61,838 bases of DNA from Paenibacillus ihuae. Its GTDB lineage: Bacteria; Bacillota; Bacilli; Paenibacillales; Paenibacillaceae. The notes under the pieces are model-generated. The model ran no database searches. It had not been told where the DNA came from and worked only from the letters and a program-made list of their open reading frames with translations. A program made the translations under genes and the position numbers. Location of the stretch: NCBI RefSeq assembly GCF_001368795.1, contig NZ_LN831203.1:137480-199317 (forward strand), written 5' to 3'. This document shows positions 38,347-55,518 of the stretch, piece by piece. Position 1 is the stretch's first letter. The number at the start of each line of letters is the position of its first letter.

Positions 38347-40089
38347 TTAGAGCAGCTTAATCAGCTCTTCTAGCTCTTCAACCAAACCTTTTGCCAGTTC
38401 AAAATCAGTATTTTTTAAAGCCACTTCTATTTTTGTTTCCACTGATTTTTTCTGTTGTTCAGTTTCTAAGTAGTCTTTATCAAAATGACTGGCATAAATC
38501 ATCTTTCTGAATTTTCGCATACTCATTTTTCTAATGGTCTTATCGTCAATGATCAGGACATAATCCATACCATTCACCACAGAATAGAAATCATGAGAGA
38601 TCATGAGAATCGCACCCTTATAGTCCCCAATGGCTTTCTCCAGTGCTATTTGTGTATAGGTGTCTAAATGGCTTGTCGGTTCATCAAGAAGCAATACGTT
38701 TGCTTTACTGGCAGCAACTTTAGCCAATTGAAGCATGTTTTTTTCTCCGCCGGACATAGATTCTATCTTTTGATTAACAATTTCTCCTTCAAAGCCATAG
38801 TTTGAGAGATACGTTCTAATCTCATCATAAGTTGTAAAACCGGCCTCGATGAATTCCTCAAGAATAGTATTGGAATCCTTCAGCATTTCGCCTTGAAGCT
38901 GAGATAAATAAGCCACTTTAACATCAGCATTGATCTCAATGGAATCATGATTATTTTTATAAATCTCCCGGAGTAAAGTCGTTTTACCGGTGCCGTTTGG
39001 ACCGATAAGGGCTACTTTATCCGTAGATTTTATCTCAAAGTTAACATTTTCTAAAAGCAGCTCATCAAAGGCAATACTATAATCATTAACATTTATAACA
39101 ACGGTATCTTCAACTATTTCATGATCCACACCAAAACTGATATCCGGTTGCTTAATATCTACGAAGGGTGCTTTAATTCTGCGCGCTTCCAATCTTTCCT
39201 GAAATTTAACCCTGGCTTTTAATGCTTTCCCTCTGGATGCTTCGGAATTATAAGTTGCGATAGCTCTAAGATTATCGATGATATTGTCGTTTCTCTTAAT
39301 TTCTTCCTCTTCAGCGACTGCGAGTTCTTGCAGCTCAATTTTAGTTTGAAGTAAGAAGAAGTTATATTCAATATATCGCCCGTCAAACTCTTGGATCTCC
39401 ATGTTTTCAAGGTGAATAATTTTGTTGAAACAATGATTCAATAAATAACGGTTGTGCGTAACAACCAGCAGAATTCCTTTGTGAGAATTAATTAGATGTT
39501 TAAGCGCATTAAGGTTTTCAAAATCCAAAAATACATCAGGTTCATCCATAATCATCAATTCTGGACTATTAAGCATTTCCTTCATTACCTGAATAAGTTT
39601 GAATTCCCCGCCACTCAGATCAGATACCCTAACATCTTTGAGCTTCATGAGGTCTGCCAGATTTAGTTTCTTATTAATATTGCTTTCGTAATCATCCCCG
39701 CCCATTGCATCAAATGCATCTAAAGCTAATTGATACTTTTCAAGCAACGGATCAATATCTGTGGCTGTCTCCATTTCAGTGAGAATAGAGTTTATTTCAT
39801 TTTGAATCTTAATAAACTTTTCGCCGATATATTCAAAAACTGTTGTTTCTTGAGATTTGTCTGGTTGAGAGAACTGACTTACATACCCAATTGTGCAAGT
39901 TGGGTCTATCTCTAATCTGCCCTCATACAAATATCTTTCTGGATCCATCAATATATCGATCAGTGTGCTTTTCCCGCTGCCACTCGTTCCAATAAAAGCG
40001 CAATGTTCTGCCTCTTCAAGCGTAAATGAAATGTTTTTATATAGTTCTTTTTGCGGAAATGCGAAGGATAAGTTTTCAACTTTTATCAT
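38347..40089 (-). CDS. ABC-F family ATPase, probable ribosome-protection/antibiotic-resistance type
   Basis: 580 residues, no membrane helices. Two ABC domains: Walker A GTSGSGKST, signature DLSGGE, Walker B MIMDEPDVFLD, switch VVTHNRY in the first; GPNGTGKTT, MSGGEKN, LLLDEPTSHLD and MISHDFY in the second. The ~80-residue helical linker between them (about 240-320, ELAVAEEEEIKRN...ALKARVKFQERLEARR) is the P-site tRNA-interaction motif region. ABC-F proteins either act as translation factors or dislodge antibiotics from the ribosome. The A+T-rich composition differs from its neighbours. It lies immediately downstream of the biosynthetic operon, so self-resistance is a possible role. Confidence 0.85.
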   Translation of the reverse strand: MIKVENLSFAFPQKELYKNISFTLEEAEHCAFIGTSGSGKSTLIDILMDPERYLYEGRLEIDPTCTIGYVSQFSQPDKSQETTVFEYIGEKFIKIQNEINSILTEMETATDIDPLLEKYQLALDAFDAMGGDDYESNINKKLNLADLMKLKDVRVSDLSGGEFKLIQVMKEMLNSPELMIMDEPDVFLDFENLNALKHLINSHKGILLVVTHNRYLLNHCFNKIIHLENMEIQEFDGRYIEYNFFLLQTKIELQELAVAEEEEIKRNDNIIDNLRAIATYNSEASRGKALKARVKFQERLEARRIKAPFVDIKQPDISFGVDHEIVEDTVVINVNDYSIAFDELLLENVNFEIKSTDKVALIGPNGTGKTTLLREIYKNNHDSIEINADVKVAYLSQLQGEMLKDSNTILEEFIEAGFTTYDEIRTYLSNYGFEGEIVNQKIESMSGGEKNMLQLAKVAASKANVLLLDEPTSHLDTYTQIALEKAIGDYKGAILMISHDFYSVVNGMDYVLIIDDKTIRKMSMRKFRKMIYASHFDKDYLETEQQKKSVETKIEVALKNTDFELAKGLVEELEELIKLL

Positions 40090-40159
40090 AGGATTACCTT
40101 TCTTTATAACTAAATTTCTGACTATTATTTGTGACTATTATTAGATGTACTGAAGAGTT

Positions 40160-40188
40160 AGAATAACACTGTTTACAGTCAACTTCAA
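40160..40188 (-). promoter_or_regulatory. Promoter of the ABC-F gene
   Basis: On the minus strand TTGAAG (40183-40188), 17 bases, TATTCT (40160-40165). It places the start about 64 bases before the ATG at 40089. Confidence 0.45.
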
Positions 40189-40236
40189 TCAATTCACATT
40201 AAAGTTGTTCGTTAAATCGAAAAACACAACTGGCAT

Positions 40237-40266
40237 TGTCACCAGTCAATGAATTGTTCAGTGACA
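40237..40266. repeat. Inverted repeats in the operon-ABC-F spacer
   Basis: TGTCAC (40237-40242) pairs with GTGACA (40261-40266). On the minus strand a short overlapping stem ACTGG/CCAGT (about 40230-40247) is followed by a T-rich stretch. The two structures compete, as in ribosome-mediated attenuators before ABC-F genes, but I found no convincing leader peptide. The rest of the 270-base spacer (40090-40361) is A+T-rich and otherwise featureless. Confidence 0.4.
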
Positions 40267-40361
40267 TTAAATTATGTCAATTATAAAAGAATGAGTAAAT
40301 TCTTATGTTAGAAACTACTCCGAGAGCTTTACTTGACCCATCCTAATTCCTTAAAATATTC

Positions 40362-41909
40362 CTAAATGAATAGGGTGCCTATACTGAATTCAATATGCAG
40401 CGGAGCCGCCTTATCCCAGGTTTTGCAGCCGATTCCGATTTGCACGATTTCGCCGATCCCGCTTGTGGCCAGCACTTCCATGTCTTCAGTCCCGTCCTTC
40501 CGGGCAAACCCGAACGTATAACTCTCCTTGCGTTTCCTGATATACAATACGATGCCGTTGACGCTGTTACCCTGGAACTCCGTGCTGCACAAAGCCCGAA
40601 AGTCTCCAATTTTGGAGAGCATCACAGCGGTTCCGTTAATCATTCCCCAATAATAGAGCTCACCTAATACCGTGCGGAAAACAATCCCGGACTGAAATAA
40701 TACGTCATCATGATAAGGAAGCACTTCCATTTGCATGGACAAATGAAAGTCCCCCCTCAGAAACTCCGTTTGCCGATACATCGCTTTTGGCGAGTTGTCG
40801 GAAATCCAGCAGTTATACAACTTGTCTCCTCTAAAGATAAAGCGGGCTTTATTGCCATCAAAGGCGATGATGCCGTCCTCGTTGTTTTCCAGCAGAAATT
40901 GGCTGGCCATAGTGTCATGTTCCTTGCAGCCGTCCGGATTCAATCTCTTCCATTCCTCTCCGACGTCTATCAGACAATGGCGCATGCGCCGGTCCGCTTC
41001 TCCCGCAGTAGCGGTTTTCTCCACGATATCGAAGTTTTTTTTGCGCACGGCGTTAATAATGTAGCTGTTGATGACCAAGTTCCATTCCCCGATCAAATCG
41101 TTCTTCGCGGCCATCAGCTCCTGTATGACACTCTGGGCTTGGCCAAAGTATTCTTTCAAATGATTAATCAGTTCGGTATAGGCCACTTCTTTGTGCTTCA
41201 CAATTTTAAACAAAGGCAAGCTAATGGAAGCGGCGGTAATGGGATCGGCCAAGGGCTGATCCATTAACGTTATTTCCCTGTAAGGCTGTTCATACAGCCC
41301 AGAGGCAAGAAAATCAATACAATCCAGTATGATGCTTGTTTCGTGAAGGGGTTTGCGGCCGTTTTTTTCCATGGCATACACTTCATGAAGCGGATAAACC
41401 GCCTTATAAGACTCATACATGGCTGTTACAACATCGAAGGGAATGGCAAATTCCTCGTATTTTTGTTCCTCCGTCTTCTTTTGACAGCCATCCAGCACGA
41501 AAAAAATATTCTTATCGTCGTCGTATCCCTTAATCAGGAACAAATGCTCCCAATCGGAGGTCTTATAATGATAGGAATAGAATAATTCCCGTAAATTCCC
41601 CGGTACGAATACCGGATTATGCAGATCAATCTCCGCCTTTATAGAAGAGATCAAATCATCGGACAAGGCGAGCGTTTTCAGCTTCAGTCCGAAACGGGGC
41701 ATCATTTCACGGGTGTATTGAAAAATCTCATCGGAGTTATCAGTCAGATTATAGTAGGCCCTCATTAGTTTCAAGCAAATATAGAATAAATTTCCCCATC
41801 CGGGCTGCAGGCTTTCGATGGCTATTCCCAAGGGCTTCTCAAAGCAACTGATATAATCAACCGTATAATTGTCGCGATTGGGCTTTAACTGAACAATAAC
41901 CTTCCTCAT
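40362..41909 (-). CDS. BtrH-like acyltransferase with C-terminal beta-sandwich
   Basis: 515 residues from ATG 41909 with GAGGTG 6 bases upstream. Residues ~1-330 resemble the BtrH N-terminal fold: DYISCFEKPLGIAIESLQPGWGNLFY places a cysteine near the start, and WEHLFLIKGYDDDKNIFFVLDG gives the His-Asp region of a papain-like transferase. In butirosin assembly BtrH moves an acyl group from a carrier protein to an aminoglycoside. The last ~190 residues (FDGNKARFIFRGDKLYNCW...SGIVFRT...YYWGMING) look like a DUF1349/concanavalin-type sandwich. It is the last gene of the operon. I infer transfer of the carrier-bound amino acid to the product. Confidence 0.65.
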   Translation of the reverse strand: MRKVIVQLKPNRDNYTVDYISCFEKPLGIAIESLQPGWGNLFYICLKLMRAYYNLTDNSDEIFQYTREMMPRFGLKLKTLALSDDLISSIKAEIDLHNPVFVPGNLRELFYSYHYKTSDWEHLFLIKGYDDDKNIFFVLDGCQKKTEEQKYEEFAIPFDVVTAMYESYKAVYPLHEVYAMEKNGRKPLHETSIILDCIDFLASGLYEQPYREITLMDQPLADPITAASISLPLFKIVKHKEVAYTELINHLKEYFGQAQSVIQELMAAKNDLIGEWNLVINSYIINAVRKKNFDIVEKTATAGEADRRMRHCLIDVGEEWKRLNPDGCKEHDTMASQFLLENNEDGIIAFDGNKARFIFRGDKLYNCWISDNSPKAMYRQTEFLRGDFHLSMQMEVLPYHDDVLFQSGIVFRTVLGELYYWGMINGTAVMLSKIGDFRALCSTEFQGNSVNGIVLYIRKRKESYTFGFARKDGTEDMEVLATSGIGEIVQIGIGCKTWDKAAPLHIEFSIGTLFI

Positions 41910-41929
41910 TTCCGGCACCTCGTTTCCGA

Positions 41930-42751
41930 TTAATTCCCTGTACTTTCATAATGTTTAAGACCCGTCTTCCAAAAAAGTAAGGAACCAATAAAAACGGCTA
42001 TGCCGACAAATAAAGTGAGGAATATCCAAATCCAGTGATGCCGCTCTGCGATAAAAAAACGGGAGGGATAATAATTGACGAAAGCCAGGGGGATGCAGAA
42101 TGTGAGAATCCATTTGATCAGCTTTGGATAGATGGACAACGGATACGCAATAAATCCTCTCATTTGATAAAACAACAGCTCCTGAATCTGCCCCGATTTG
42201 GTAGTCCAGAAAGTCATAACGGCAGAGAACAAAAGCAAGGCCCCTTGAATTAAAGTTCCTCCGATCAGTACTAAGACAATAGCCAGCACGTTCTCCAGCG
42301 ACAGTGAAAGTTGAAGCCTGCTGTACGAATAAAAGAACAAAAGGAGGCCTAATGTGCCATGCCCCAAGGTTGCCATTACATCCGACTTTCGTGCGATTAC
42401 CTGAAAGAAAGGAGCAACCGGTTTGGTTAGATATCCGTCAAACTCCCCCTGATGGACAATTCCTTCAAAATCCCGAACGCCGGTAAAAACTAAAATGCAT
42501 ATACTGTAAGTCAAAAATACAAAACTATACAGAAATAGAAGCTCACCAATATCCCATCCTCCGATTTCAGAAAATTTCTGCAGAATCAGATACAGCGATA
42601 TTATGGTCACACATTCTCTTATTAAAACAGCAAGAGACAGCAGAAACGTATCCAGTTTATACTGCATTCGGGACATCATCGTCATTTTCAGAAAGCGGAA
42701 ATACAATACGAAATAACCGGACAGGCTGTGTTTTTGAAAAGAGTTCCGCAT
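41930..42751 (-). CDS. ABC-2 type exporter permease (second subunit)
   Basis: 273 residues, six hydrophobic segments, with FEGIVHQGEFDGYLTKPVAPFFQVIARKSD, the amphipathic cytoplasmic loop typical of the COG3694-type ABC-2 permeases. PLAFVNYYPSRFF near the C-terminus is also family-typical. It starts 4 bases after the stop of the other permease. The pair forms the membrane pore of the exporter encoded in this operon. Confidence 0.85.
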   Translation of the reverse strand: MRNSFQKHSLSGYFVLYFRFLKMTMMSRMQYKLDTFLLSLAVLIRECVTIISLYLILQKFSEIGGWDIGELLFLYSFVFLTYSICILVFTGVRDFEGIVHQGEFDGYLTKPVAPFFQVIARKSDVMATLGHGTLGLLLFFYSYSRLQLSLSLENVLAIVLVLIGGTLIQGALLLFSAVMTFWTTKSGQIQELLFYQMRGFIAYPLSIYPKLIKWILTFCIPLAFVNYYPSRFFIAERHHWIWIFLTLFVGIAVFIGSLLFWKTGLKHYESTGN

Positions 42752-42755
42752 CTTT

Positions 42756-43544
42756 TTATCCCCCTTGGATAACCAGCTTGTACTGGGCTTTTCTCCAAAT
42801 TAAGCACCCGATGGTCAAGAGCACGGCAATCCATAGAACCTGACCGATATACAACGACCATATTTCATGTAAAGTTGCCTTCCCAAGATAAATACTTAAT
42901 GGTGTAAAGTAAATAGCCTTGAACGGCAGCCATGCCAGTATATCCGCCATCCAATCGGGCATGAACCATAGCGGTATTACGGCACCCGACAACAGCAAAA
43001 TCAGCGCATTCTTAATCGTAACGATGCTCCATGTATGATGAACCCAGAAAGCAGACAGCCAAACAATGAGATTAAAGCTGTACAAGACAAAATAACTCAA
43101 TACCAGGCTCACTACAAACAGTACAATAAACACTGTTTGCTCGGGAACGACAAGGTCAAAAATGAGAAATGCCAAAATCAGTACAGGCAGAACCTTAGTC
43201 CATATGTTGTAGAGGACTTCTCCCAGGACTATAGAGAATATGTAATCGAGGAAACGGACAGGCCGCAATAAATCGGCTGCAATCTCGCCGGTGTGAACCT
43301 TATGATCGATCACGAATTCATTCATGGAGAGCATGGCGCGCATAATCATTCCCAAAACGGAATATGTGATCATTTCTTCCCGTGTAATCCCTTCAAATAT
43401 TTGCCTGCCTCCATAAACCGCATCCCATATGGCGGCTCCGATAAAAATCGTCAATATGGAGTTGAACAAGCCCAGAAAGTATTGAAGGCGGTAAATAGCA
43501 TGGCTTCGAAACGACCTGCTCATGAATTCCACATATGTCCTCAT
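42756..43544 (-). CDS. ABC-2 type exporter permease (first subunit)
   Basis: 262 residues with six hydrophobic segments. FVIDHKVHTGEIAADLLRPVRFLDYIFS is the conserved loop of the COG4587-type permeases, and WMADILAWLPFKAIYFTPLSIYLGK is their C-terminal signature. The start ATG overlaps the stop of the ATPase gene. It works with the following permease and the preceding ATPase. Confidence 0.85.
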   Translation of the reverse strand: MRTYVEFMSRSFRSHAIYRLQYFLGLFNSILTIFIGAAIWDAVYGGRQIFEGITREEMITYSVLGMIMRAMLSMNEFVIDHKVHTGEIAADLLRPVRFLDYIFSIVLGEVLYNIWTKVLPVLILAFLIFDLVVPEQTVFIVLFVVSLVLSYFVLYSFNLIVWLSAFWVHHTWSIVTIKNALILLLSGAVIPLWFMPDWMADILAWLPFKAIYFTPLSIYLGKATLHEIWSLYIGQVLWIAVLLTIGCLIWRKAQYKLVIQGG

Positions 43545-44560
43545 ATAGTCACCTTCACGTTGTTACAATAATTAGGGTCGCCCTCATTTACATAAATCTC
43601 TCTAATAATCTGGTCGATTTCCGGCTCTACAATTGTCAAATCCGTCACTTCGTTGTATCTGGACAGCTCGACAAGCAGCGCCGCCGCACTAATCTCATCC
43701 TTATGAAAGCGAAAGGACACCCGCATGCCTTCCAACCGGGTTACTTCCACCCCGGGAATGCCGGGAATATGGCTAATGGAATGAAATTCAACGATCAGCT
43801 TTCGGTACTTTCCGTAGTTTTTTCTAATCTGATCCATTCCTCCGTCATATACAAGCTGACCTTTGTCGATGATAATCATTCGGTTGCATGTTTTTTCGAT
43901 ATCCTTCATGTCATGAGTGGTCAGCATAACCGTGACCTTTTTTTCTCTGTTGATATTTACCAGAAGATCCCTGATCTTTTCTTTCGCGATAACGTCCAAA
44001 CCGATGGTTGGTTCATCAAGAAAAAGAATGCTCGGGTTGTGAAGCAAGGCCGCCAGCAGGTCTCCTCTCATGCGCTGCCCCAGGCTTAGCTGCCTTACGG
44101 GTGTATTCATGAATGAGCCCGTATCCAGCAAATCACTCAGAAACCTCAGGTTCTTACGAAAGTCCGATTCCGGTATTTTATATATGTATTTGGATAGCTC
44201 CAAGGATTCCGACAAAGGGAGATCCCACCATAACTGAGTTCGTTGCCCGAATACCACGCCGATATCTGCTGCATTTTCCATCCGATTTTTATAGGGGATT
44301 TTACCGTTCACATAAAGTTCTCCCGAGCTGGGAACGAGAATTCCGGTCAGCATCTTGATCGTTGTCGATTTACCGGCCCCATTGGGACCGATAAACCCGA
44401 CCATCTCTCCGGAGTCAATGGAGAATGAAAGGTCTTTAACCGCCTCCTTCAACTCATAGCTTCCAGAAAAAAAACTCCGGACGGCCCCTTTAAACCCACT
44501 TTTCTCTTTACGCTTCAGCTTATAATGCTTTCGCAGCCCGTGGATCTGAATCAAGCTCAT
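43541..44560 (-). CDS. ABC transporter ATP-binding protein (export type)
   Basis: 339 residues. Walker A GPNGAGKST, Q loop GQRTQLWWDLPL, signature LSLGQRMRGDLLAALLHNP, Walker B SILFLDEPTIGLD and switch TTHDMKD. A ~90-residue C-terminal extension follows the core, as in DrrA-like and COG4586-type drug exporters. Its start overlaps the carrier protein stop. With the two ABC-2 permeases it probably pumps out the product of this operon. Confidence 0.92.
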   Translation of the reverse strand: MSLIQIHGLRKHYKLKRKEKSGFKGAVRSFFSGSYELKEAVKDLSFSIDSGEMVGFIGPNGAGKSTTIKMLTGILVPSSGELYVNGKIPYKNRMENAADIGVVFGQRTQLWWDLPLSESLELSKYIYKIPESDFRKNLRFLSDLLDTGSFMNTPVRQLSLGQRMRGDLLAALLHNPSILFLDEPTIGLDVIAKEKIRDLLVNINREKKVTVMLTTHDMKDIEKTCNRMIIIDKGQLVYDGGMDQIRKNYGKYRKLIVEFHSISHIPGIPGVEVTRLEGMRVSFRFHKDEISAAALLVELSRYNEVTDLTIVEPEIDQIIREIYVNEGDPNYCNNVKVTI

Positions 44561-44814
44561 TTCCCCACCGCCTGGTAAGCTTTTTCAACCAACCGCACAA
44601 TATCCGACAGTTTTTGACTGCTTCGAATTTCGATTAATACGCTTTCCAGTGAAATATCCAAGCTTTCTTCGATTTCTATCATCAGGTTGACAAGCCCCAA
44701 CGAATCCAGGCCGGATTCGGCGCCAAGGGCAGCTTCTAAAGAAGGCTCTAATTTTACAGGATAGTCCTCCAGTACCTTCTTGTAGCTTTCTATTACAGTT
44801 TCAGCAAAATTCAC
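44557..44814 (-). CDS. Acyl/aminoacyl carrier protein
   Basis: 85 residues from a GTG at 44814, with AAGGAGG 8 bases upstream inside the preceding gene. The pattern SGLDSLGLVNLMIEIEESLDI gives the DSL motif whose serine receives phosphopantetheine, at the start of helix 2 of an acidic four-helix bundle. The gene overlaps the seryl-synthetase-like ligase by 14 bases, an arrangement that points to a partner role: the ligase would load an amino acid on this carrier, and the BtrH-like protein would pass it on. Confidence 0.9.
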   Translation of the reverse strand: MNFAETVIESYKKVLEDYPVKLEPSLEAALGAESGLDSLGLVNLMIEIEESLDISLESVLIEIRSSQKLSDIVRLVEKAYQAVGK

Positions 44815-45964
44815 CGTTTAGTCCTCCTTGTTCAAGCAATTGTTTGGCCGGCTCCGGCCAACTCCGGGGCTTCGGTCCCCATTGGCTTAAGGCAGCCAAA
44901 ACCCATCGCTCCAGTCCGAAGCCGACACAGCCGGTCACGCTAAGTTCCTCATTATTAACCTTGATATCAAATGGGCCCGTAAATGCTTTGCCGTGAATAT
45001 TAAAGGATGCCACCGCTAAATACTGGTTGGGCTTACACTCAAGCTGAAGCTCGTATTTACTTCTTTCCTCATGCTGAATTTTTTTGAATTTCTGCATCGC
45101 CGGAACAACGAAGGGATCATGCGCGGCGCATAGCCGGAATGATAAGCCGACTTCAGAAAGAAAGGCCACGACTTGCTCAATAACCGCGCTTCGGCATCGT
45201 TCAACAAATTCGGAATTCCCCACAAAGACAAGCTCCCTCACCTCATAATCACGCAGCCTGCCAAAATCATCCCAGTTCAACCGCCCTTCGTTGCGGAACA
45301 CGTTTTGTCTTGTCGTAATTACGGTAGGTGCACTTAACCGGGAGCCTTCAAGATCCATGTAGCAGTGAAAGCAGGCAGCAGGAGACAGAACATAACGGGG
45401 TGCCTCAAGGTCGTTCAGCGTTTGGTTTCTGTCGGCGGATTTATACAGATTGAGAAGCACGTCTATATCCTCTTGGGGATGGCAAACGAAGCTGGAGTAT
45501 TGAGGAGACGTTCGCAGGTACGCTGTCTTTTTGATGGCCTCCAACGGAAGCAGCGTGGGATATCGCATTTCCACTGCCCCAAGCTTCAGGGCAAACCGCC
45601 TGAATACGGCATCAAAACCGTTTAGCAATTGAAGGGCTTCACCCTTTAAGGAAATCAATCCGTTGCCATATTGCTGGATGCTGTCAAAGCCGTTGGGGTT
45701 GTAAAAAACCATACTCGCCGGGGAGCTTTTTTCCGCCACAATCTCATCCAGCAAGCCGCTCCGGTTTCGTTCAAATTGCTTGAGAATTTTCTCGATTTTG
45801 CGGGTCAATTCCTCCGAATCGACCCGCTCCGCCGTCTCGATTTGGAGCAGACCGTTTTGAAATTGAATCTGAAGGATTTCGCTTGCTGCAAAACACAAAG
45901 CTTTAATTAAATCCCCCGCATAATTATGCGTCTCCGGCAGCAAAGGAATGTGGAGTGTCGTCAT
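44801..45964 (-). CDS. Class II aminoacyl-tRNA-synthetase-like amino acid:[carrier protein] ligase
   Basis: 387 residues. Class II motif 2 is present in TTRQNVFRNEGRLNWDDFGRLRDYEV and motif 3 in VTGCVGFGLERWVLAAL. A cysteine in LSPAACFHCYMDLEG, the glutamate of FRNEG and the cysteine of TGCVGFG correspond to the zinc-binding Cys/Glu/Cys of atypical (archaeal-type) SerRS and of amino acid:[carrier protein] ligases. The N-terminal ~100 residues are not a recognisable tRNA-binding domain. With a carrier protein gene overlapping its 3' end, the best reading is a carrier-protein-charging enzyme that activates glycine, alanine or a similar amino acid. A SerRS paralogue is the alternative. Confidence 0.75.
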   Translation of the reverse strand: MTTLHIPLLPETHNYAGDLIKALCFAASEILQIQFQNGLLQIETAERVDSEELTRKIEKILKQFERNRSGLLDEIVAEKSSPASMVFYNPNGFDSIQQYGNGLISLKGEALQLLNGFDAVFRRFALKLGAVEMRYPTLLPLEAIKKTAYLRTSPQYSSFVCHPQEDIDVLLNLYKSADRNQTLNDLEAPRYVLSPAACFHCYMDLEGSRLSAPTVITTRQNVFRNEGRLNWDDFGRLRDYEVRELVFVGNSEFVERCRSAVIEQVVAFLSEVGLSFRLCAAHDPFVVPAMQKFKKIQHEERSKYELQLECKPNQYLAVASFNIHGKAFTGPFDIKVNNEELSVTGCVGFGLERWVLAALSQWGPKPRSWPEPAKQLLEQGGLNGEFC

Positions 45965-47043
45965 TTCAACTCTTCCTGCATTTTAAATTTCAAATTGAAA
46001 GCCATCGAATGGAAAGAGTTTTCCCTTTTAACCACTTGATTCTTGCCGGAAACCATTATTTCATCGATATAATCGGCTTCGAAAGGCTTCAACTGCTCCA
46101 GAACGCCGGACGGAACAAGATTCCTGTAAAATTCATTCACATGGTAAAGCGTATAATACGCAGCTTTCCGAAGGTGCAGCCGTTCAATCACCGTCATCCA
46201 TCCGTTCCATTTATCCGTATCCGTATTAGAGCGGATCGTATTCACAATATCGATCAGCTTATATAGAACAACATCTCTGCGTCCGCTGCTCCATAAGGAG
46301 TTGGAACCTTCCCTGAAAAAATGAACACACAAATGGACCAGATTCGTCTCCCAGGGCAGCCCCAAAAATCCCCTGTCCCCGTATTGGTAATGCACGGTTC
46401 CATAATCAAGAACCAGCTTAGTTACATCGTTATACTTGGAATCAAAATGAAAATTGATATCAATCTCATGAAAATCAACAAAATCGGAATCTATCTTTTT
46501 TACATAAGGCACCAGATCGTGATAGTTTAAGCGTTGAATCAGTTTGTCTTTCCGGCTGGCTTCTATTAATTCATTATTGGGCAGCAATGACTGCTTGTAC
46601 CCGAAGTTCCGTAAAATCGTGTCAAGTCTGTCCAAATCTTCTTCATACACCAGCAGATCGCTGTCATTAGAGCGCCTGTCGCCCATTTGGTAAAGGGTCG
46701 CATTAAAGACCAGGCCTTTCAGGGCCGCATAACGGATATGCTGCTGTTCCAGCTCCTGTAGAACCGGAAGGATGATATCGTTAATTTCCTGGGTTTGTCT
46801 TCTTTGAGCTTTTACAATAAGCTCCAGCGTTTTCTTGAACTCCGGGAAAAGCTTCCTGGCTTGGTCCTGCCGTAAACCGCTGCAGAAGTAACCGCTCAAA
46901 CGGTGATGGGCCAGTTGTCCTGCAACAAAACCCCAATCGATTTCTTCTTCAAGCAATTGATACAGTGCTTCTTCTTCCCGATCGGTCCTATTCCTTAGAA
47001 CGGCTGTCAGAATCAAATCAATTTCCCGCTTCATGTCATTCAT
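45961..47043 (-). CDS. Nucleotidyltransferase-fold protein (NTP_transf_5-like)
   Basis: 360 residues. The region IRYAALKGLVFNATLYQMGDRRSNDSDLLVYEEDLDRL matches the uncharacterised nucleotidyltransferase family (PF14907 type), where D-x-D binds metal, followed by DFHEIDINFHFD. Downstream, NLVHLCVHFFREG and LVDIV-like helices follow the family pattern. Members recur in peptide and aminoglycoside-like gene clusters, often beside an HprK-like kinase as here, but their reaction is not settled. The 3' end overlaps the ligase start by 4 bases. Confidence 0.75.
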   Translation of the reverse strand: MNDMKREIDLILTAVLRNRTDREEEALYQLLEEEIDWGFVAGQLAHHRLSGYFCSGLRQDQARKLFPEFKKTLELIVKAQRRQTQEINDIILPVLQELEQQHIRYAALKGLVFNATLYQMGDRRSNDSDLLVYEEDLDRLDTILRNFGYKQSLLPNNELIEASRKDKLIQRLNYHDLVPYVKKIDSDFVDFHEIDINFHFDSKYNDVTKLVLDYGTVHYQYGDRGFLGLPWETNLVHLCVHFFREGSNSLWSSGRRDVVLYKLIDIVNTIRSNTDTDKWNGWMTVIERLHLRKAAYYTLYHVNEFYRNLVPSGVLEQLKPFEADYIDEIMVSGKNQVVKRENSFHSMAFNLKFKMQEELK

Positions 47044-47079
47044 CCGGACAAAGGCTCCTTTTATTGTGGATTTTCGAAC

Positions 47080-48120
47080 CTAATCCCATGACAGGGAATT
47101 TACATACTGAACCGTTTGATCGCCTTCGACAATTTCACCGATAGGGTAAGTCTCGCAGCCTTTGGACTCCAAATGCCGACGGATGCTGTCGGCTTCGTTC
47201 TTGGAAGATATCAGTGTGATGCCCACTCCCATATTGAAGGTGCGGAGCATGTCCTTGTCGTCTACGTTACCGTAACGCCGAAGGGTCTTGAAAATTTGCG
47301 GTACCCGGATATGCTCAAGATCGATTCGCGCAGCGGTCTGTACGGGCAAGATGCGATTTAGATTCCCCTCTATTCCACCTCCCGTTATATGGGCCAGACC
47401 GTGAATAAGTGATGTTCCGAGTAAATCTTCCAGCTCTTGGTAGTAGCACTTATGCGGGCGTAATACTACATCCATAAACGGTTCTCCGTCTATCGTCTCC
47501 GTCATCATCTCGGGACGTTCTTCCATCAGCTTGCGAACCAGCGAGTATCCGTTTGTATGAAGCCCATTGGAGGCCAAAGCAAGGACAACATCTCCGGCTT
47601 GTATCCGGGAGCCATCAATAATTTTACTTTTATCCACCACGCCCAGGATGCTGGCATTAAGCATATACCCCCCTTCCGGCAATACACGCGGCTGCTCGGA
47701 GGTTTCTCCGCCGATAAGCTGGCAACCCTGTTTCCGGCTGGCCTCTGCAATAGAGCGAACAATACGGAGCACAATTTCTTTCTCTATTTTTCCGCATAAA
47801 ATAATATCGAGAACTACCTCCGGCTTTGCGCCCATTACGATAATATCGTTGATCAGATGATTGATGAGGTCAAAGCATACTCCCTCGACCTTATCCTGTT
47901 CGAAAGCGAGCAACTGCTTGGAACCGGGTTCTTCCGCTTTAAGTACCAGCACCGGATTGTCGACTCCGGGAAACTTGGCTTCAAATAAAGATGCAAAAGC
48001 TCCGGGGCGGTTCAATATTCTGGTGTCGTTTGTTTCCATGCTGTCGGCCATTTCTCTCTTGGCTGCGTCTGCGGCATCAATATTAACGCCGGATGATTTG
48101 TAGGAAAATTCTTTTGTCAT
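47080..48120 (-). CDS. PurM-like AIR synthase paralogue
   Basis: 346 residues, the full length of phosphoribosylformylglycinamidine cyclo-ligase. Recognisable elements: YKSSGVNIDAADAAK (replacing the usual DAGVDID), FDLINHLINDIIVMGAKPEVVLDII, GGETSEQP, ALASNGLHTNGYSLVRKL, HITGGGIEGNLNRILP and FNMGVGITL. The ATP-grasp-free PurM fold is intact, but several active-site-near residues differ from housekeeping PurM. Because it lies in a dedicated operon and not among pur genes, I infer a role in ring closure or phosphorylation of a purine- or imidazole-like intermediate of the product. Confidence 0.85.
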   Translation of the reverse strand: MTKEFSYKSSGVNIDAADAAKREMADSMETNDTRILNRPGAFASLFEAKFPGVDNPVLVLKAEEPGSKQLLAFEQDKVEGVCFDLINHLINDIIVMGAKPEVVLDIILCGKIEKEIVLRIVRSIAEASRKQGCQLIGGETSEQPRVLPEGGYMLNASILGVVDKSKIIDGSRIQAGDVVLALASNGLHTNGYSLVRKLMEERPEMMTETIDGEPFMDVVLRPHKCYYQELEDLLGTSLIHGLAHITGGGIEGNLNRILPVQTAARIDLEHIRVPQIFKTLRRYGNVDDKDMLRTFNMGVGITLISSKNEADSIRRHLESKGCETYPIGEIVEGDQTVQYVNSLSWD

Positions 48121-48137
48121 GTGTTTATCTCCGCCCT

Positions 48138-48818
48138 TTATTCAAAAGTTGATTTTAAATAGATGCGCTCGATCTCACAGCGCTCGCTTTGAGTTAATAC
48201 ATGTATCACCTGATTAGCTACATCCTCGGCATAAAGCGAAATTGGACGGTCTCCCGGCTTCTTTCCATTAAAAAAGGTGTCCACACGTCCCGGCCCGATA
48301 GTTGTAACGGTAATCGGGGTTCCCTTCAATTCCTGCCTGACGGAATCTGCAAATCCTCGAAGACCGAATTTCGAAGCGCAATATAAACTTCCTTCGGCAA
48401 ACCCGATATGATCGGCGTCGGAGGTAATATGAATCAGCCTGCCGAAATTTTTCCGCTTCATATGCGGCAGAACGTATTTTGTAAGCAAAAAAGGTATAGT
48501 GAGATTTAAAGTCAAAACCCGGTTCCAATGATCCAGTTCAAGACTTTCAGCTAAAGCGAACTTGCCAATTCCTGCGTTATTGATTAAAATGTCGATTCCC
48601 CCGGAATCCAGTAATACACAAAGTATGGTTTCGATGGATCGGGGAATGTCCGTAAGATCGCAAGAATACAAATTCAGGCTCCCAGCCAAGTCGGGGGGGA
48701 CATCCTGGGGATTTTGCGTAATGGCATATATAGTGTACTCGCCCTGCTCTACCAGCTTCTTAGCGATAGCTTTTCCAATGCCCTTACTACAGCCCGTTAA
48801 TAGTACAGTTCTCTTTAT
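48138..48818 (-). CDS. Short-chain dehydrogenase in the biosynthetic operon (non-canonical start)
   Basis: The conserved SDR start KRTVLLTGCSKGIGKAIAKKL is in frame but has no ATG, GTG or TTG before it; the frame opens after a TGA and the only plausible initiator is ATA at 48818, with GGAG 10 bases upstream. The first canonical codon, TTG at 48689, would cut off the whole cofactor loop. The rest is classical: LINNAGIG, ITSDADHIGFAEGSLYCASK with Ser, Tyr and Lys, and IGPGRVDTFF. 226 residues in total. It overlaps the HisG-like gene by 32 bases in the +1 frame, so coupling, ATA initiation or frameshifting are all possible. Confidence 0.75.
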   Translation of the reverse strand: MKRTVLLTGCSKGIGKAIAKKLVEQGEYTIYAITQNPQDVPPDLAGSLNLYSCDLTDIPRSIETILCVLLDSGGIDILINNAGIGKFALAESLELDHWNRVLTLNLTIPFLLTKYVLPHMKRKNFGRLIHITSDADHIGFAEGSLYCASKFGLRGFADSVRQELKGTPITVTTIGPGRVDTFFNGKKPGDRPISLYAEDVANQVIHVLTQSERCEIERIYLKSTFE

Positions 48819-49413
48819 GACTCATCAGCTCCATTATCGTTGTTATCAGATGTTTAGTCTGATTGCACACGGCAGGCTTACTAACCAGCACAATTTTGGA
48901 TTGATAAATAACGCTTTCTTCCGTCAAATTGTGCAACAGCAATGTTTTTCCAGTTTCCACGCAGTCCACACAGCAATTGTAAAGACTTGGAACCAGCGCT
49001 TCACTAGACCCCGAAATGTTGTCGATGGTCACATTGTTATTATGGGTCGTATTGAAAAAATTACGGGTGATTCTTGGAAACTCCGTGATGCAGCGAATGC
49101 CTCTGTTCCCGTTTAATACAGGTCTGTCTTTGTCGCTGATTAAGCTGATCCGGGTGTCGCACCAATCCAACTCCTTATGGATGTATAGATCGGAATCATT
49201 CTCATAGAGCCATTCCGTTGAGGTAATTCCTACATCCAAATATCCTAAATCGATAAGTCCCGGAATATCTCTATGCTTCAACAAATAATAATGAACATCG
49301 TCTTGATCGGAAAAATGCAGCTTGTCTTTGTCAATGGGAACTCTCAGCAAGTCTTCAATTAATGCAATAGACTTGCGCTTTACGACGCCTTTAGGCAGTC
49401 CGACTCGAATCAA
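48787..49413 (-). CDS. HisG-like ATP phosphoribosyltransferase paralogue
   Basis: 208 residues from a TTG at 49413 with AGGAGG 8 bases upstream. It begins IRVGLPKGVVKRKSIALIEDLL, then GLIDLGYLDVGITSTEWLYEN, CITEFPRITRNFF, and the PRPP loop region with VDCVETGKTLLLHNL (compare VDIVETGNTLRANGL in HisG). This is the size of the short HisG form, which normally needs the HisZ subunit; no HisZ is present here. In histidine synthesis HisG joins ATP to PRPP. Here, away from his genes, I infer phosphoribosylation of a purine or other base in a specialised pathway. Confidence 0.8.
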   Translation of the reverse strand: MIRVGLPKGVVKRKSIALIEDLLRVPIDKDKLHFSDQDDVHYYLLKHRDIPGLIDLGYLDVGITSTEWLYENDSDLYIHKELDWCDTRISLISDKDRPVLNGNRGIRCITEFPRITRNFFNTTHNNNVTIDNISGSSEALVPSLYNCCVDCVETGKTLLLHNLTEESVIYQSKIVLVSKPAVCNQTKHLITTIMELMSHKENCTINGL

Positions 49414-50590
49414 CGCATCCCCCTCCTGCAATATCCTGATACACCGACAATATTTTTGCAAAGCAGTTTTCTTCCCTGTAAATCCCGCCTTGACCGTCAA
49501 TCCATCGGACCATACCGATCTTCAACCCAGATAATATGCCAGGCTTGAGCAGGCATTCCATTATCAGCCCTTCAAGCTCCTGCGGGTGGTCCCGTTCAAA
49601 CAAAAGCCCGTTACGCCCATGTTCAATGATTTTGAGAGATGCATCGTTCCGTGTTGCGATGACCGGGGTACCGGTAAACATCGCTTCCAGAAGAACCGAG
49701 CTGAAATTGCCCTTTTGCCTGGCATCAATGAGAAGGGTTGCCTTTCTGAGAAGTTGGCCAACGCTTGCCCTGTCCAGATATCCCGTGAAAAGTACCGATT
49801 CCCCTATATCAAGTCTTTCCACCGTTTCCTCCAGTAATTCTCGGTGTATTTGTTCCGGATGGTCGTCCTGACCCGCAATGACTAAACGGCAAGGTATCTT
49901 CCTTACGATTTCCGCGAAAGCGGCCAGTATGGACATAATCCCCTTTTCGGGGCTGAAGCAGGAGTTGATGGTGGCCAGAATGGGCAACTCTTCGTCTATA
50001 CCCAGCTTACCTTCCCCGAAAATCCGCTCATCCAGAGGCATCGGAATTTCCTGAATGTTCCGGTGCAGAAATTCCGAGGGATACATACCGCATATCTTAT
50101 TATTGAGGGTTTCGTCAGTAACCAGGATCCGACTGGCGTTTGAAAAGCTTCCGTCAATCAACCACTTGATTCTCCGGTCATGCTCGTATCCGAGGTTAAC
50201 ATCCCTGCCGAAGCTGGACACGATATATGGCACCTCCGTCAATCCATAAGCCACATATGCGCCAAAGCTGTTGAAGGAACCATAATGGGCATGAATCAAG
50301 TCCAGTCCCACTTCCTCATGAAGCTCTACTAAATAGCTAACGATGGCCGACAACGATCGGGCATAAGCGGCTGAGCTTACTTCACGATCGTCTATAATAG
50401 GATGTTCCAGCAAACAGGGGGCGATTTCTATGTATCTCATAAGCTCTTCGTTCACGTCATCCGGAGGTTTGCTCCCCAACAAATATGCTTCATGACCCTG
50501 AGAATGCAGAAAGGCAAATAAATTCTTTGCATAAATAATACTGCCAGAGTTATATGACAGATCGGCCGAAGGCACGATAGCTATCTTCAT
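49391..50590 (-). CDS. Glycosyltransferase family 4
   Basis: 399 residues, GT-B fold. N-terminal MKIAIVPSADLSYNSGSIIYAKNLFAFLHSQGHEAYLLG and DLIHAHYGSFNSFGAYVA are the acceptor half. ELPILATINSCFSPEKGIMSILAAF, FTGYLDRASVGQLLRKATLLIDAR and NFSSVLLEAMFTGTPVIATRND (the E-x7-E region) are the nucleotide-sugar half. It transfers a sugar from a nucleotide donor with retention. The start overlaps the previous stop by 4 bases, so it belongs to this operon and probably glycosylates its product. Confidence 0.9.
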   Translation of the reverse strand: MKIAIVPSADLSYNSGSIIYAKNLFAFLHSQGHEAYLLGSKPPDDVNEELMRYIEIAPCLLEHPIIDDREVSSAAYARSLSAIVSYLVELHEEVGLDLIHAHYGSFNSFGAYVAYGLTEVPYIVSSFGRDVNLGYEHDRRIKWLIDGSFSNASRILVTDETLNNKICGMYPSEFLHRNIQEIPMPLDERIFGEGKLGIDEELPILATINSCFSPEKGIMSILAAFAEIVRKIPCRLVIAGQDDHPEQIHRELLEETVERLDIGESVLFTGYLDRASVGQLLRKATLLIDARQKGNFSSVLLEAMFTGTPVIATRNDASLKIIEHGRNGLLFERDHPQELEGLIMECLLKPGILSGLKIGMVRWIDGQGGIYREENCFAKILSVYQDIAGGGCVDSSRTA

Positions 50591-51501
50591 AATCCCATCC
50601 CTTCATGAAAATGATCACGTACTTTCATCGCGCACACCGGATCGAAAATATCCGCACTTAGATAACGCAACTTGAAGTTTCGGAGCAAATGCTTGATTAA
50701 AACAGTTTCTGCGGCTAACAGGCTCATACGTTCCGAAAATCCGGCATCCCGGTGGTAATCGACTAGGTCCTCCTTCAAATCATAATTTCCCGCTGCCGCT
50801 GCAAAATAAGTCATAAAAGACAAAGCCGTTCTGTTATCCAGCGGGGAGCAAGCGAATTGCCCTTCTCGGTTGCAATCGATAACATAAATCGCATGAATTG
50901 TTCCATTAGCCGGTTCCCGATGCTCAGGCAAAATATAGCTCTCACGTCCAGCGGAATCTCTTATCCGTCTCCAGCTAGGAATGGCCCATGCTTCATGATC
51001 TTTTACCATGACATGCGTATTTCCGGCAAAATAATAACCTGTTTGCTCCAAATACGAGGCAAGTGTTGTTTTACCGCTTTTCCCCCTCCCCAGAAGCAGG
51101 ATGGCCTTCCCCTTTTTCAACAGCATGGAGGCTTTCAGGTGCAATGCGCCATGCCTCAAGGCCATACAGGTAAAGATCTGCTTCAGTGCGTAAGACCATA
51201 CGATTTTCTCATAAGCCTGCTGCGACTCGCTTCCAAGTGTAATGCTCAACGAATCGCGATCTAGCCGCATTCTTCCCGAAACACCGTGATGGTGCCCGAG
51301 ATATATTCCTCTTTCAAGCATTTCTTGGCGGTAAAACTCCGTTTCCGGCGGCAGTTCCCTGTGCAGATAAAGTTGATATCGGCTCTCGGCAAACGTTCTG
51401 GTGTATGAGGCTTGTCCAAGCACACGCTCAGCCAGATAGGCGGGATTAGGGGAATGAACAACCAGCTTTCCGAATGGCATGCCGATTTCCCTACTATGCA
51501 T
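50587..51501 (-). CDS. HprK-like P-loop kinase
   Basis: 304 residues. Walker A is LLLGRGKSGKTTLASYLEQTGYYFAGNTHVMV, the arrangement of HPr kinase-related proteins found in natural-product clusters (for example tailoring kinases of lasso peptides). ALRHGALHLKASMLLKKGKAILLLG precedes it in the usual way. The C-terminal half is not conserved with true HprK, so the substrate is not HPr. ATG 51501 overlaps the MazG-like stop; ATG 51480 is an alternative start. I infer phosphorylation of an intermediate or of the product. Confidence 0.75.
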   Translation of the reverse strand: MHSREIGMPFGKLVVHSPNPAYLAERVLGQASYTRTFAESRYQLYLHRELPPETEFYRQEMLERGIYLGHHHGVSGRMRLDRDSLSITLGSESQQAYEKIVWSYALKQIFTCMALRHGALHLKASMLLKKGKAILLLGRGKSGKTTLASYLEQTGYYFAGNTHVMVKDHEAWAIPSWRRIRDSAGRESYILPEHREPANGTIHAIYVIDCNREGQFACSPLDNRTALSFMTYFAAAAGNYDLKEDLVDYHRDAGFSERMSLLAAETVLIKHLLRNFKLRYLSADIFDPVCAMKVRDHFHEGMGL

Positions 51502-51853
51502 TATTCAAATCCGCCTCTGAACCATCCGATTGAAGTCCCGGTTCTTGAGCGGCATATTTCAAGCAACCGTATTGCCGGAGTTGCCGGTTCACTTCCTTTG
51601 TAAACGTTCGCTCTAATGCTTCGGATATTTGAATATCCAATATGTTTCCAAGGCATAAAATCCAGGCCAGGAGATCTCCGAGTTCCCCCGTGATGTCCTC
51701 CTTCGATTTCCCCTTGCGAACCGCCGCTACCACCTCGCCCATTTCCTCCACCATCCATATGATGGATTTATTTAAATCGTAACGGCCGTATAGAGTTAAC
51801 GAGGTTCTCTGGATGATGTCCAGTTTTGCCGCAACTTGTGCAATGTTGTCCAT
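51494..51853 (-). CDS. MazG/HisE-like nucleotide pyrophosphohydrolase
   Basis: 119 residues from ATG 51853; the in-frame TTG upstream is itself part of the AGGAGG site. The all-alpha NTP pyrophosphatase motif is clear: IIWMVEEMGEVVAAVRKGKSKEDITGELGDLLAWILCLGN, with EExxE and ExxD binding magnesium. This superfamily includes HisE, which removes pyrophosphate from phosphoribosyl-ATP. With a HisG-like enzyme three genes away, a HisE-like step on a phosphoribosylated nucleotide is a natural inference; house-cleaning of dNTPs is the alternative. Confidence 0.85.
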   Translation of the reverse strand: MDNIAQVAAKLDIIQRTSLTLYGRYDLNKSIIWMVEEMGEVVAAVRKGKSKEDITGELGDLLAWILCLGNILDIQISEALERTFTKEVNRQLRQYGCLKYAAQEPGLQSDGSEADLNNA

Positions 51854-51870
51854 GTAGTGTCCGGTCCTCC

Positions 51871-52449
51871 TCAAGACAGCAGCTTAATGTCTAGCAAATT
51901 GTTCAAAGACTGGATCTGCTCAGCGCTTTGATTGTTGATTTCTGACAGCAATATTGCGCAAACGTTTGCATAAACAGGCTGATGAATTCTGAAATACTGT
52001 GTAAAATACGAATGCAGAGCTTCAAAGATATCTCGTTGCGTATCTAAAAGCTTGGATTCCAAAATATACTCTCTGCCCCAACTGTTTATTCTAAGCTGTT
52101 TGACTCTGTCATCTCTGATTTTGAATTTCTTCGCTGCGGTAAACCGGTAAACAAGCTTAGCTTCATCTACTGCAATGAAAGCGTATTTCAGTAATCCCGG
52201 CTCAAAAATTCTTCCCAAGGCCTCTCCCATCAAATGGCCTATGGAGTCATCATCCAGAATATAAAAATGGTATTGGGCCTTTCCTTCCTGCTTCAATACC
52301 AAATCTACCGTATAGAGAGCAAGCAAAATCACTTCACCGGGATCTGCCCGGTACGTTCCCATACGAAATTCCGGAATCCTGCTCCGATTCAGCCTGTAGC
52401 GTTCGATCGGATTAAGAGCATCCCATTCGATATTGTCCGCCAATGGCAC
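51871..52449 (-). CDS. Hypothetical protein, first gene of the biosynthetic operon
   Basis: 192 residues from a GTG at 52449 with AAGGGGG 4 bases upstream. It has no signal peptide or membrane helix. I recognise no family. Notable segments are RYRADPGEVILLALYTVDLVLK-like helix at ~33-55, FYILDDDSIGHLMGEALGRIF, and LKYAFIAVDEAKLVYRFTAAKKFKIRDDR. The stop lies 17 bases before the MazG-like ATG. Its place at the head of the operon suggests a pathway-specific role, but none can be named. Confidence 0.7.
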   Translation of the reverse strand: MPLADNIEWDALNPIERYRLNRSRIPEFRMGTYRADPGEVILLALYTVDLVLKQEGKAQYHFYILDDDSIGHLMGEALGRIFEPGLLKYAFIAVDEAKLVYRFTAAKKFKIRDDRVKQLRINSWGREYILESKLLDTQRDIFEALHSYFTQYFRIHQPVYANVCAILLSEINNQSAEQIQSLNNLLDIKLLS

Positions 52450-52550
52450 TTTATCCCCCTTATCATCATAATAATCCTCTTACGGCAAAAATGGACTCCA
52501 ATGAAAGCCCTGCCATTTACTGAAATAAGAATGCCCTTAAAGAAATAAAA

Positions 52551-52564
52551 TCCAAATATTTGGA
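52551..52564. promoter_or_regulatory. Perfect 14-bp palindrome upstream of the biosynthetic operon
   Basis: TCCAAATATTTGGA, 102 bases before the first start codon, within an A+T-rich stretch (52540-52640) that should hold the operon promoter. It is a candidate operator. I could not settle on a single -35/-10 pair. Confidence 0.4.
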
Positions 52565-52692
52565 AATAAATTAATTACATTCAAATTAAAGTAATATACT
52601 GGAATCTATTTTTCACAATATTAATACCTTAGTTCCTTTGTGTCAATAAAAATAATGGCAGATAAAAGGTCTGGGAAAACAATTAAGGGAAA

Positions 52693-52735
52693 ACCTGAGG
52701 GGAAATGCCTGAGGGAAAATGCCTGAGTAAAGAGC
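52693..52735. repeat. Imperfect 14-15-bp tandem repeat
   Basis: Three successive copies of a CCTGAGGG(G)AAAATG unit. Part of the non-coding 52450-53193 stretch upstream of the operon. Confidence 0.6.
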
Positions 52736-52790
52736 GAGAAAAAAGCCGAGCGAAATCAGGTGTGGATACCTGAAATTCGTCGGCTCGTAA

Positions 52791-52848
52791 GCAAACTTTA
52801 AGTCGTCAGCGGCAAACTTTAAGTGCGGAGTGGAAACTTAAATAGATG
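52791..52848. repeat. 21-bp tandem repeat
   Basis: GCAAACTTTAAGT begins copies at 52791 and 52812, with a degenerate third at 52833. A hairpin (CAGGT/ACCTG inside GCCGA/TCGGC, 52745-52784) lies just before. Nothing else is evident in the surrounding 740 bases besides the palindrome and the glmS terminator. Confidence 0.65.
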
Positions 52849-52981
52849 GGGACAATAGCTTTCTCCAATTCCTTGTCCCCTCCTTCTTTAGATATTTACT
52901 TTGCAGCTTTTCTTTTCTTCCGCCCCGCTTAGACAAACTCGCTACCTCCTGAAAGTTCCTCTGTACCCCGATAATAGCCCC

Positions 52982-53030
52982 AAAAATGACTAATGGCTCC
53001 GCCCCCTAATACAAAGGGCGAAGCCATTAG
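52982..53030 (-). terminator. Terminator of glmS
   Basis: CTAATGGCTCCGCCC with GGGCGAAGCCATTAG (52990-53030, one mismatch); on the minus strand it is followed by TCATTTTT. The T run on the plus side (53037 on) may make it bidirectional. It lies 165 bases after the glmS stop; the gap between holds nothing recognisable. Confidence 0.75.
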
Positions 53031-53193
53031 ATATAAATTTTTTTGCTGTGATCTAGATGCTCTTAATTGCATTTTAATCAAGAGTGGCTGCCAATAAACA
53101 CTCTGACACCAACTCTATTGTAAAGGCACTGACTTTGTTGTAAAGGAACCAACTATAATGTCACCATACACCAATCTTTACTACTATTAACCC

Positions 53194-55470: not shown

Positions 55471-55518
55471 TGCTGTAACCTTACTATCCCCGCTTTCCTT
55501 CTGGAATGACACCTAATC

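Follow-up and report, generated by a model that had tools for sequence, protein, structure and literature searches.

A 14-gene Paenibacillus operon made of two separable modules, with a probable role in making and exporting a nucleotide-derived small molecule

Gene content and layout of the operon

We analysed a 61,838-nucleotide stretch of the Paenibacillus ihuae genome (contig NZ_LN831203.1, positions 137,480 to 199,317; hereafter the window, whose own coordinates are used throughout) and focus on a run of 14 minus-strand genes (g01 to g14) that descends from 52449 to 40362, with neighbours overlapping or abutting. The operon consists of two modules, A (g01–g07) and B (the g08–g13 block), with g14 last. 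An earlier sequence-only reading had described such a run at 40362..52449 and its extent holds, with junctions between -32 and +36 bases; its count of 15 genes is corrected to 14, the number named in its own list. Pfam scans covered all 14 proteins and an NCBIfam scan covered g01–g10, with the following assignments.

51871..52449, minus strand: g01, module A, 192-amino-acid protein with a predicted winged-helix-like fold
51494..51874, minus strand: g02, module A, MazG/HisE-like nucleotide pyrophosphohydrolase (PF03819, 44.1 bits, cut-off 22)
50587..51501, minus strand: g03, module A, HprK/FomB-like P-loop kinase (NF000361 FomB, 109.1 bits, below the cut-off of 400)
49391..50590, minus strand: g04, module A, family 4 glycosyltransferase (GT4; PF00534, 81.3 bits, cut-off 26.4)
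48787..49410, minus strand: g05, module A, HisG-type phosphoribosyltransferase of a separate clade (TIGR00070, 91.5 bits, cut-off 75.75)
48138..48818, minus strand: g06, module A, short-chain dehydrogenase/reductase (SDR) with a probable ATA start (PF00106, 141 bits)
47080..48120, minus strand: g07, module A, PurM-type ATP-dependent enzyme of the EEPGSK subfamily (TIGR00878, 279.5 bits, cut-off 236.35)
45961..47043, minus strand: g08, module B, NTP_transf_5 protein (PF14907, 117.6 bits, cut-off 31.2)
44801..45964, minus strand: g09, module B, SerRS-like amino acid:[carrier protein] ligase (NF005479, 127.2 bits, below the cut-off of 357)
44557..44814, minus strand: g10, module B, acyl/peptidyl carrier protein adjoining g09 (PF00550, 21.2 bits, cut-off 20.8; GLDSLG present)
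43541..44560, minus strand: g11, module B, ABC exporter ATPase (PF00005, 88.4 bits, cut-off 25)
42756..43544, minus strand: g12, module B, ABC-2 permease, ABC2_membrane_6 (PF06182, 63 bits, cut-off 22)
41930..42751, minus strand: g13, module B, ABC-2 permease, ABC2_membrane_6 (PF06182, 149.6 bits, cut-off 22)
40362..41918, minus strand: g14, BtrH/CcbD/CtaG-like predicted papain-fold amide synthase with a C-terminal lectin-like domain

Nine of the 13 junctions are overlaps and the other four gene pairs lie 4–36 bases apart (from g01 to g14: -4, -8, -4, -20, -32, +17, +36, -4, -14, -4, -4, +4 and +11 bases), and the gaps at the operon edges are 744 bases on the glmS side and 272 bases on the ABC-F side. 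The originally proposed absence of an internal terminator agrees with the terminator scan: terminator-like matches between 38500 and 54500 were at chance level (18, against 15.3 in shuffled sequence, standard deviation 4.0), and the eight minus-strand matches within the operon have only 3–5 G-C pairs apiece. Most of the gene names first proposed were also right, in that the MazG, GT4, HisG, SDR, PurM, NTP_transf_5, carrier, ABC and permease assignments pass Pfam; the HprK-like assignment is remote, and the SerRS-like and BtrH-like labels, both under their family cut-offs, gained support from conserved residues and fold.

The HisG-type enzyme g05, for which a TTG start was picked by comparison with homologues, carries DCVETGKTL at the position of DxVxTGxTL, which we take to be the phosphoribosyl pyrophosphate (PRPP)-loop motif of HisG. 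A search at E ≤ 1e-10 gave 59 homologues, two of which (P0037 and P0040, with G replaced by A in the loop) are natural MazG-HisG fusion proteins. These fusions link the HisG step to the removal of pyrophosphate, in parallel with histidine synthesis, where HisE acts after HisG. In a tree of 55 of the 59 homologues (four rows shorter than 170 residues were excluded), g05, a Leptospira protein described below and six canonical HisG sequences, the 57 clade rows split from the canonical ones with support of 100/100 over a branch of 3.08 changes per column; the Leptospira row is itself a long branch. The Arg of the KGR motif is present in all six canonical sequences; of the 16 aligned clade rows long enough to cover the motif, 14 lack it.

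Relative to the canonical PurM of the same genome, g07 has KAEEPGSK for GTDGVGTK and GGETSEQPR for GGETAEMPG, and retains D-x4-GAxP. The genome encodes that canonical PurM separately (contig C8, 469.5 bits), along with other HisG matches (G000:C5:216550-216955, which look like a single gene that the assembly shows in two frames) and a match to phosphoribosyl-AMP cyclohydrolase (hisI) on C5, so that g05 and g07 are extra copies. HisG matches at 27–31% identity in six of seven further genomes were taken as canonical HisG.

The other module A proteins are likewise conserved in sequence. The MazG residues EExGE and ExGD are kept in all six aligned rows, including Leptospira and both fusions, and the P-loop motif LLxGRGxxGKT of g03 is found in 4/4 rows, its matches in the Protein Data Bank (PDB) being weak P-loop matches only. 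For g04 the top NCBIfam model was BshA, under the BshA cut-off. The SDR signature GRVDTxFNGKKPG is common to four of four rows including Leptospira. No ATG, GTG or TTG precedes the nucleotide-binding (cofactor) motif of g06 (region 48787-48830) in the window or in two related loci, L002 and L030; all three have ATA at the expected place, and a further locus, L031, has ATG. Lastly, g01 matched no family above cut-off in Pfam or NCBIfam, and its 11 homologues align with 21 invariant columns. Its structure model (predicted local distance difference test score 89.9) has a winged-helix-like core without a convincing match to one family. Conservation across phyla would favour g01 acting within the pathway over its being a local regulator.

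In module B, g08 matched only repeat proteins in the PDB. The score of g09 is also under the cut-offs of type-2 SerRS models, and the protein aligns with a solved amino acid:[carrier protein] ligase, 4h2w, at E 1.5e-21 (about 80 bits). Its C198, E244 and C346 are invariant in seven rows and align with positions of 4h2w that are presumably the zinc ligands of that enzyme; the first ~110 residues have no family match in Pfam. With the Bll0957-type ligases (4h2w, 3mey), g09 thus shares a SerRS-like core, an adjacent carrier protein and the three zinc-ligand positions, but it scores under the NCBIfam cut-off and sits with an exporter and a predicted papain-fold amide synthase.

The predicted structure of g14 matches the fold of CcbD and CtaG, followed by a lectin-like domain of about 180 residues at the C-terminus, and the model suggests an amide synthase-like protein plus lectin-like domain. 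The Pfam BtrH_N score is 21.7 bits, below the cut-off of 29.7, and five of 11 homologues carry PF14399. A candidate Cys-His-acid triad comprises C25 (in 11/11 rows reaching it), H125 and D143 (both in 12/12); PDB titles for CtaG name the variants C11A, H128A and D144N. Predicted fold and triad are shared with the papain-fold proteins BtrH, CcbD, CtaG and AziU2-U3, from which g14 differs in being 8–10% identical and in having the extra C-terminal domain. CcbD is described in PMC12945683 as coupling an amino acid held on a carrier protein to an amino sugar, by means of a Cys-His-Glu triad.

Upstream of the operon lie the following features.

52618..52646, minus strand: candidate promoter TTGACA-17-TAATAT, identified by consensus alone (the region holds no more promoter-like sites than expected by chance, 25 against 28.8)
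52990..53030, minus strand: probable intrinsic terminator of the upstream glmS, a 19-pair stem followed by a T-rich tail
55253-55475: glmS ribozyme upstream of glmS (Rfam, 63.6 bits)

Riboswitch control of the operon was considered and rejected, as an Rfam search of 38000-56500 at E ≤ 0.5 returned the glmS ribozyme alone.

Distribution of the two modules

Two Paenibacillus genomes, G018 (locus L030) and G005 (locus L031), which by sequence look like P. durus and P. antarcticus, carry module A with all seven families arranged as in the window. In both, the arrangement reads NTP_transf_5, ABC, two transmembrane proteins, g01, MazG, HprK-like, GT4, HisG, SDR and PurM. Homologues of g09, g10 and g14 were not detected in these stretches, and g09 had no match at E ≤ 1e-20 in either genome. 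By eye, reading frames resembling transposases separate g01 from MazG in L030 (5727-6722). A search with g05 at E ≤ 1e-25 across 394 Paenibacillaceae genomes gave matches in four: the own genome, G018, G005 and, in part, G023 (locus L032), where PurM and part of HisG are all that remain. The GT4 matched four of 100 genomes of the genus at E ≤ 1e-80 (own, G018, G005 and G089). Locus L002 is a metagenome contig 97% identical to the window whose coordinates match contig C116 of G089; at 2840-3587 its GT4 residues 1-204 run directly into HisG residues 162-207, so that the GT4 end and the greater part of HisG are absent, through either a deletion or an assembly fault.

Module A also has a counterpart in another phylum. 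Used as tblastn baits, g01, g03 and g05 (E limits 1e-3, 1e-5 and 1e-8) each matched two of the 72,556 plasmid records searched and no others, the same two every time and both from Leptospira interrogans; g07 matched 64 records at E ≤ 1e-20, and the annotated ones among the best 20 of the 64 were purM genes. An agrocin-like route was rejected, the two Leptospira records being the only plasmid records that match g05. Gene content was read from one of the two records, plasmid p3 (NZ_CP043890.1), in which all seven module A families lie within 45564-52035 (about 6.5 kb), in genes for MazG, a 309-amino-acid protein, GT4, an aminoimidazole ribonucleotide (AIR)-synthase-related protein, HisG, SDR, a family 8 glycosyltransferase (GT8) and a 193-amino-acid protein. 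Identities to module A are 47% for MazG, 33% for the HprK-like protein, 49% for GT4, 36% for HisG, 35% for SDR, 36% for g01 and 22% for the PurM type (E 3e-9 to g07 and 1e-14 to the L031 protein). The SDR signature, the kinase P-loop and the MazG metal-site residues are shared. Gene order is mostly kept, with the PurM type ahead of HisG rather than after SDR, and g01 last. In place of module B, the plasmid has an annotated MATE exporter, the GT8, a GMC oxidoreductase and a class III aminotransferase; the wider locus (L050, NZ_CP043890.1 40220-58774) also carries an annotated acyl-CoA dehydrogenase, and a 342-amino-acid protein near the cluster gave a nucleotidyltransferase match of 17.3 bits, below cut-off.

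Module B is found on its own as well. The complete g08–g13 block, with no module A gene detected, occurs in five of eight more distant loci (L003, L004, L006, L007 and L009); the block is also complete in L033 and is incomplete in L005, L008, L010 and L034-L039, where L034 is apparently the same contig as L005. The SerRS-like protein matched 14 of 100 genomes of the genus at E ≤ 1e-20, ten of them at 29–40% identity. Companion genes vary: L003 has a GARS (glycinamide ribonucleotide synthetase)-type ATP-grasp gene and an aspartate-racemase-like gene, L004 an ATP-grasp gene (scoring under the cut-off of most models) together with a MetRS-like gene, and L007 a CysRS-like gene, the racemase-, MetRS- and CysRS-like labels being given by eye. 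Across the L004, L007 and L009 neighbourhoods, labelling by eye gives MetRS-, CysRS-, NDPK (nucleotide-kinase)- and phosphorylase-like genes. These tRNA-synthetase-like genes near module B may point to a broader family of such clusters among Firmicutes. On a Streptomyces plasmid (L052, NZ_CP107797.1 213209-242387), a 30% identical SerRS-like gene annotated as hypothetical adjoins acyl-CoA dehydrogenase, phosphopantetheine-binding, ketosynthase and nonribosomal peptide synthetase (NRPS) genes.

Elsewhere each module is found in the absence of its partner, and we therefore read aminoacylation as something added on in this genome. The operon was probably formed by the joining of two independent gene modules, and a single pathway requiring all 14 genes was rejected on the same separation. 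The proposal of one operon for small-molecule biosynthesis and export therefore stands in its parts (HisG, MazG and PurM, a glycosyltransferase, a carrier step and an exporter) and fails as a single indivisible pathway. Neighbours are kept together in relatives, as the two blocks, which agrees with the co-conservation that the sequence-only reading had proposed to check.

Proposed pathway and alternative readings

On balance, our preferred reading is that the operon's product is a small molecule derived from a nucleotide, aminoacylated and exported. The gene families, the conserved residues, the conservation of both modules, the MazG-HisG fusion and the predicted fold of g14 are observed; we infer the substrates, the step order and the product alike. 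The HisG-type g05 would join PRPP to an adenine nucleotide and the MazG-type g02 would strip pyrophosphate; the PurM-type ATP-dependent enzyme, SDR, GT4 and HprK-like kinase would subsequently modify the scaffold, and histidine-pathway enzymes encoded elsewhere may act between MazG and these later steps. The SerRS-like ligase g09 would activate an alpha-amino acid and load it onto the carrier protein g10, g14 would form an amide bond between the carried amino acid and a scaffold amine, and the ABC trio g11–g13 would export the product. Of the two product types originally suggested, an aminoacylated nucleoside is plausible and 'aminoglycoside-like' is without support.

Several observations weigh against this interpretation. 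Module A is rare: near full-length HisG of the clade is present in three of 394 Paenibacillaceae genomes (own counted), with a fragment in a fourth, and the fusion P0040, used as a query, matched only the genome of the window among 398 drawn from the phylum and none among 391 drawn from the class of G788, the latter search having been run without a positive control. The PurM type of the Leptospira cluster, at 22% identity, has an ADGAGTK-like motif where g07 has EEPGSK. The module A GT4 has G at the first Glu position of EX7E, presumably the usual GT4 motif, in four of four rows including Leptospira, which leaves the sugar donor unsure. Lastly, a g07 search of the 394 Paenibacillaceae genomes at E ≤ 1e-100 gave 12 with a match, of which five belong to the genus (own, G089, G018, G005 and G023) and seven to other genera; in those seven (L063-L069) the subfamily stands alone, at these positions.

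8892-10688 in L063-L068: stand-alone PurM-type genes
6658-7740 in L069: stand-alone PurM-type gene

By tblastn, these seven stretches were without other module A genes, except for 29–31% identical SDRs in two of them. Six of the seven stand-alone genes (EEPGSK/EEPGTK) adjoin a GntR-aminotransferase regulator and the seventh adjoins a HAD hydrolase; the four module-borne members cluster with moderate support (83/93). The PurM subfamily thus has a job outside HisG pathways, and g07 could draw its substrate from a source other than HisG.

A sharper form of the favoured pathway follows coformycin, in which ring closure involves carboxamide activation by the SAICAR (phosphoribosylaminoimidazole-succinocarboxamide)-synthetase-like protein CofB. 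Here HisG and MazG would make phosphoribosyl-AMP, host HisI and HisA would open and isomerise it, the PurM type would use ATP to activate the carboxamide and close a new ring, and the SDR would reduce the ketone, with sugar, phosphate and amino acid added later. PurM normally catalyses an ATP-dependent ring closure, and the retention of D-x4-GAxP in g07 while its other PurM motifs changed fits this route. PMC12648386 and PMC13055916 describe the HisG-like PenA and the SDR PenB as key in pentostatin synthesis and hisG homologues as recurring in related clusters, the coformycin/pentostatin-type clusters pairing a HisG homologue and an SDR with a SAICAR-synthetase homologue, PenC or AdeA. The pentostatin, coformycin and adechlorin clusters and our operon share a HisG homologue and an SDR (g05, g06) from primary metabolism; the operon differs in its PurM type, GT4, HprK-like kinase, g01 and NTP_transf_5 protein, and in its hosts, Bacillota and a Leptospira plasmid. 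No SAICAR-synthetase-like family appeared in the Pfam scans of the 14 proteins, so we do not class the operon as a member of the coformycin/pentostatin type. Given also the seven genomes in which the PurM subfamily stands without this HisG, and no pentostatin or coformycin enzyme being named among the best 60 of 576 matched solved SDRs, we consider the coformycin-like route unlikely. Another reading, also improbable in our judgement, has the HisG type phosphoribosylate a base other than adenine, giving a non-purine ribotide. The distance of the clade from canonical HisG and the frequent loss of the KGR Arg point that way, as does the failure of the specialised HisG homologues AdeC and AdeL to complement an Escherichia coli hisG mutant (PMC13055916). 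However, the fusion and constant neighbourhood with the MazG type point to a substrate or product of nucleoside triphosphate type, and the g05 score exceeds the HisG equivalog cut-off.

Two further readings take the genes away from nucleotide chemistry. Genes of the GT4 and ABC-2 types often belong to polymer-export systems, and a Dlt-like envelope modification, in which a charged amino acid is attached to a glycosylated polymer (wall or lipid) that the ABC trio exports, would accommodate the weak DltC-like score of g10 (23.1 bits, cut-off 68) and the predicted lectin-like domain of g14. We regard it as very unlikely: the Pfam scans of the 14 proteins contained no DltA, DltB or DltD family, it leaves HisG, PurM and MazG without an obvious role, and the predicted fold of g14 is that of amide synthases from small-molecule pathways. 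Even less credible is a peptide-tail (lasso-like) or defence cassette. RiPP (ribosomally synthesized and post-translationally modified peptide) recognition elements have a winged-helix-like fold, as is predicted for g01, and the kinase and nucleotidyltransferase-type genes recall phosphorylated lasso peptides. In PMC9266682, PsmK and the annotated nucleotidyltransferase PsmN of pseudomycoidin phosphorylate a lasso peptide and add a hexose to it; the likeness is that a kinase is encoded in the same cluster as a protein annotated as a nucleotidyltransferase. But the Pfam scans of the 14 proteins found no lasso-cyclase family or other lasso peptide machinery (a short precursor gene was not searched for), the sole protease-type match was g14 to Peptidase_C39_2 (17.1 bits, below the cut-off of 24), and PADLOC, on which a defence system was rejected, gave no match for the ten of 14 operon proteins run.

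Novelty and significance

The recruitment of HisG into nucleotide products is already known, as are predicted clusters of synthetase paralogues with carrier proteins and papain-like transacylases. The clusters predicted in PMC2922099 likewise bring together a synthetase paralogue, carrier proteins, BtrH/papain-like transacylases and transporters; theirs contain class I MetRS paralogues, a cupin and a lysine monooxygenase, whereas ours has a class II SerRS-like protein, NTP_transf_5 and the ABC trio. The initial claim that no characterised pathway has this gene set is upheld in that no description of the set, or of the cassette shared across phyla, was found in the open-licence PMC literature. 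A bolder proposal, which we hold possible but doubtful, sees in module A a seven-gene cassette, apparently mobile and common to Paenibacillus and a spirochaete plasmid, that founds an undescribed natural-product class. Members of the class would be built from the earliest intermediates of the histidine pathway, and a PurM-type cyclo-ligase would use ATP to close a ring, as actinomycetes do with a SAICAR-synthetase-like enzyme.

The operon would offer a small, defined gene set for nucleotide-type products outside actinomycetes. Because module A is conserved between phyla its chemistry is likely fixed, and because the mechanisms of HisG and PurM are known, the first two or three steps are directly testable in vitro. 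The distribution of module B suggests that a tRNA-synthetase-like aminoacyl module may serve as a plug-in on many Firmicutes scaffolds, one that would be missed by searches for modular NRPS genes.

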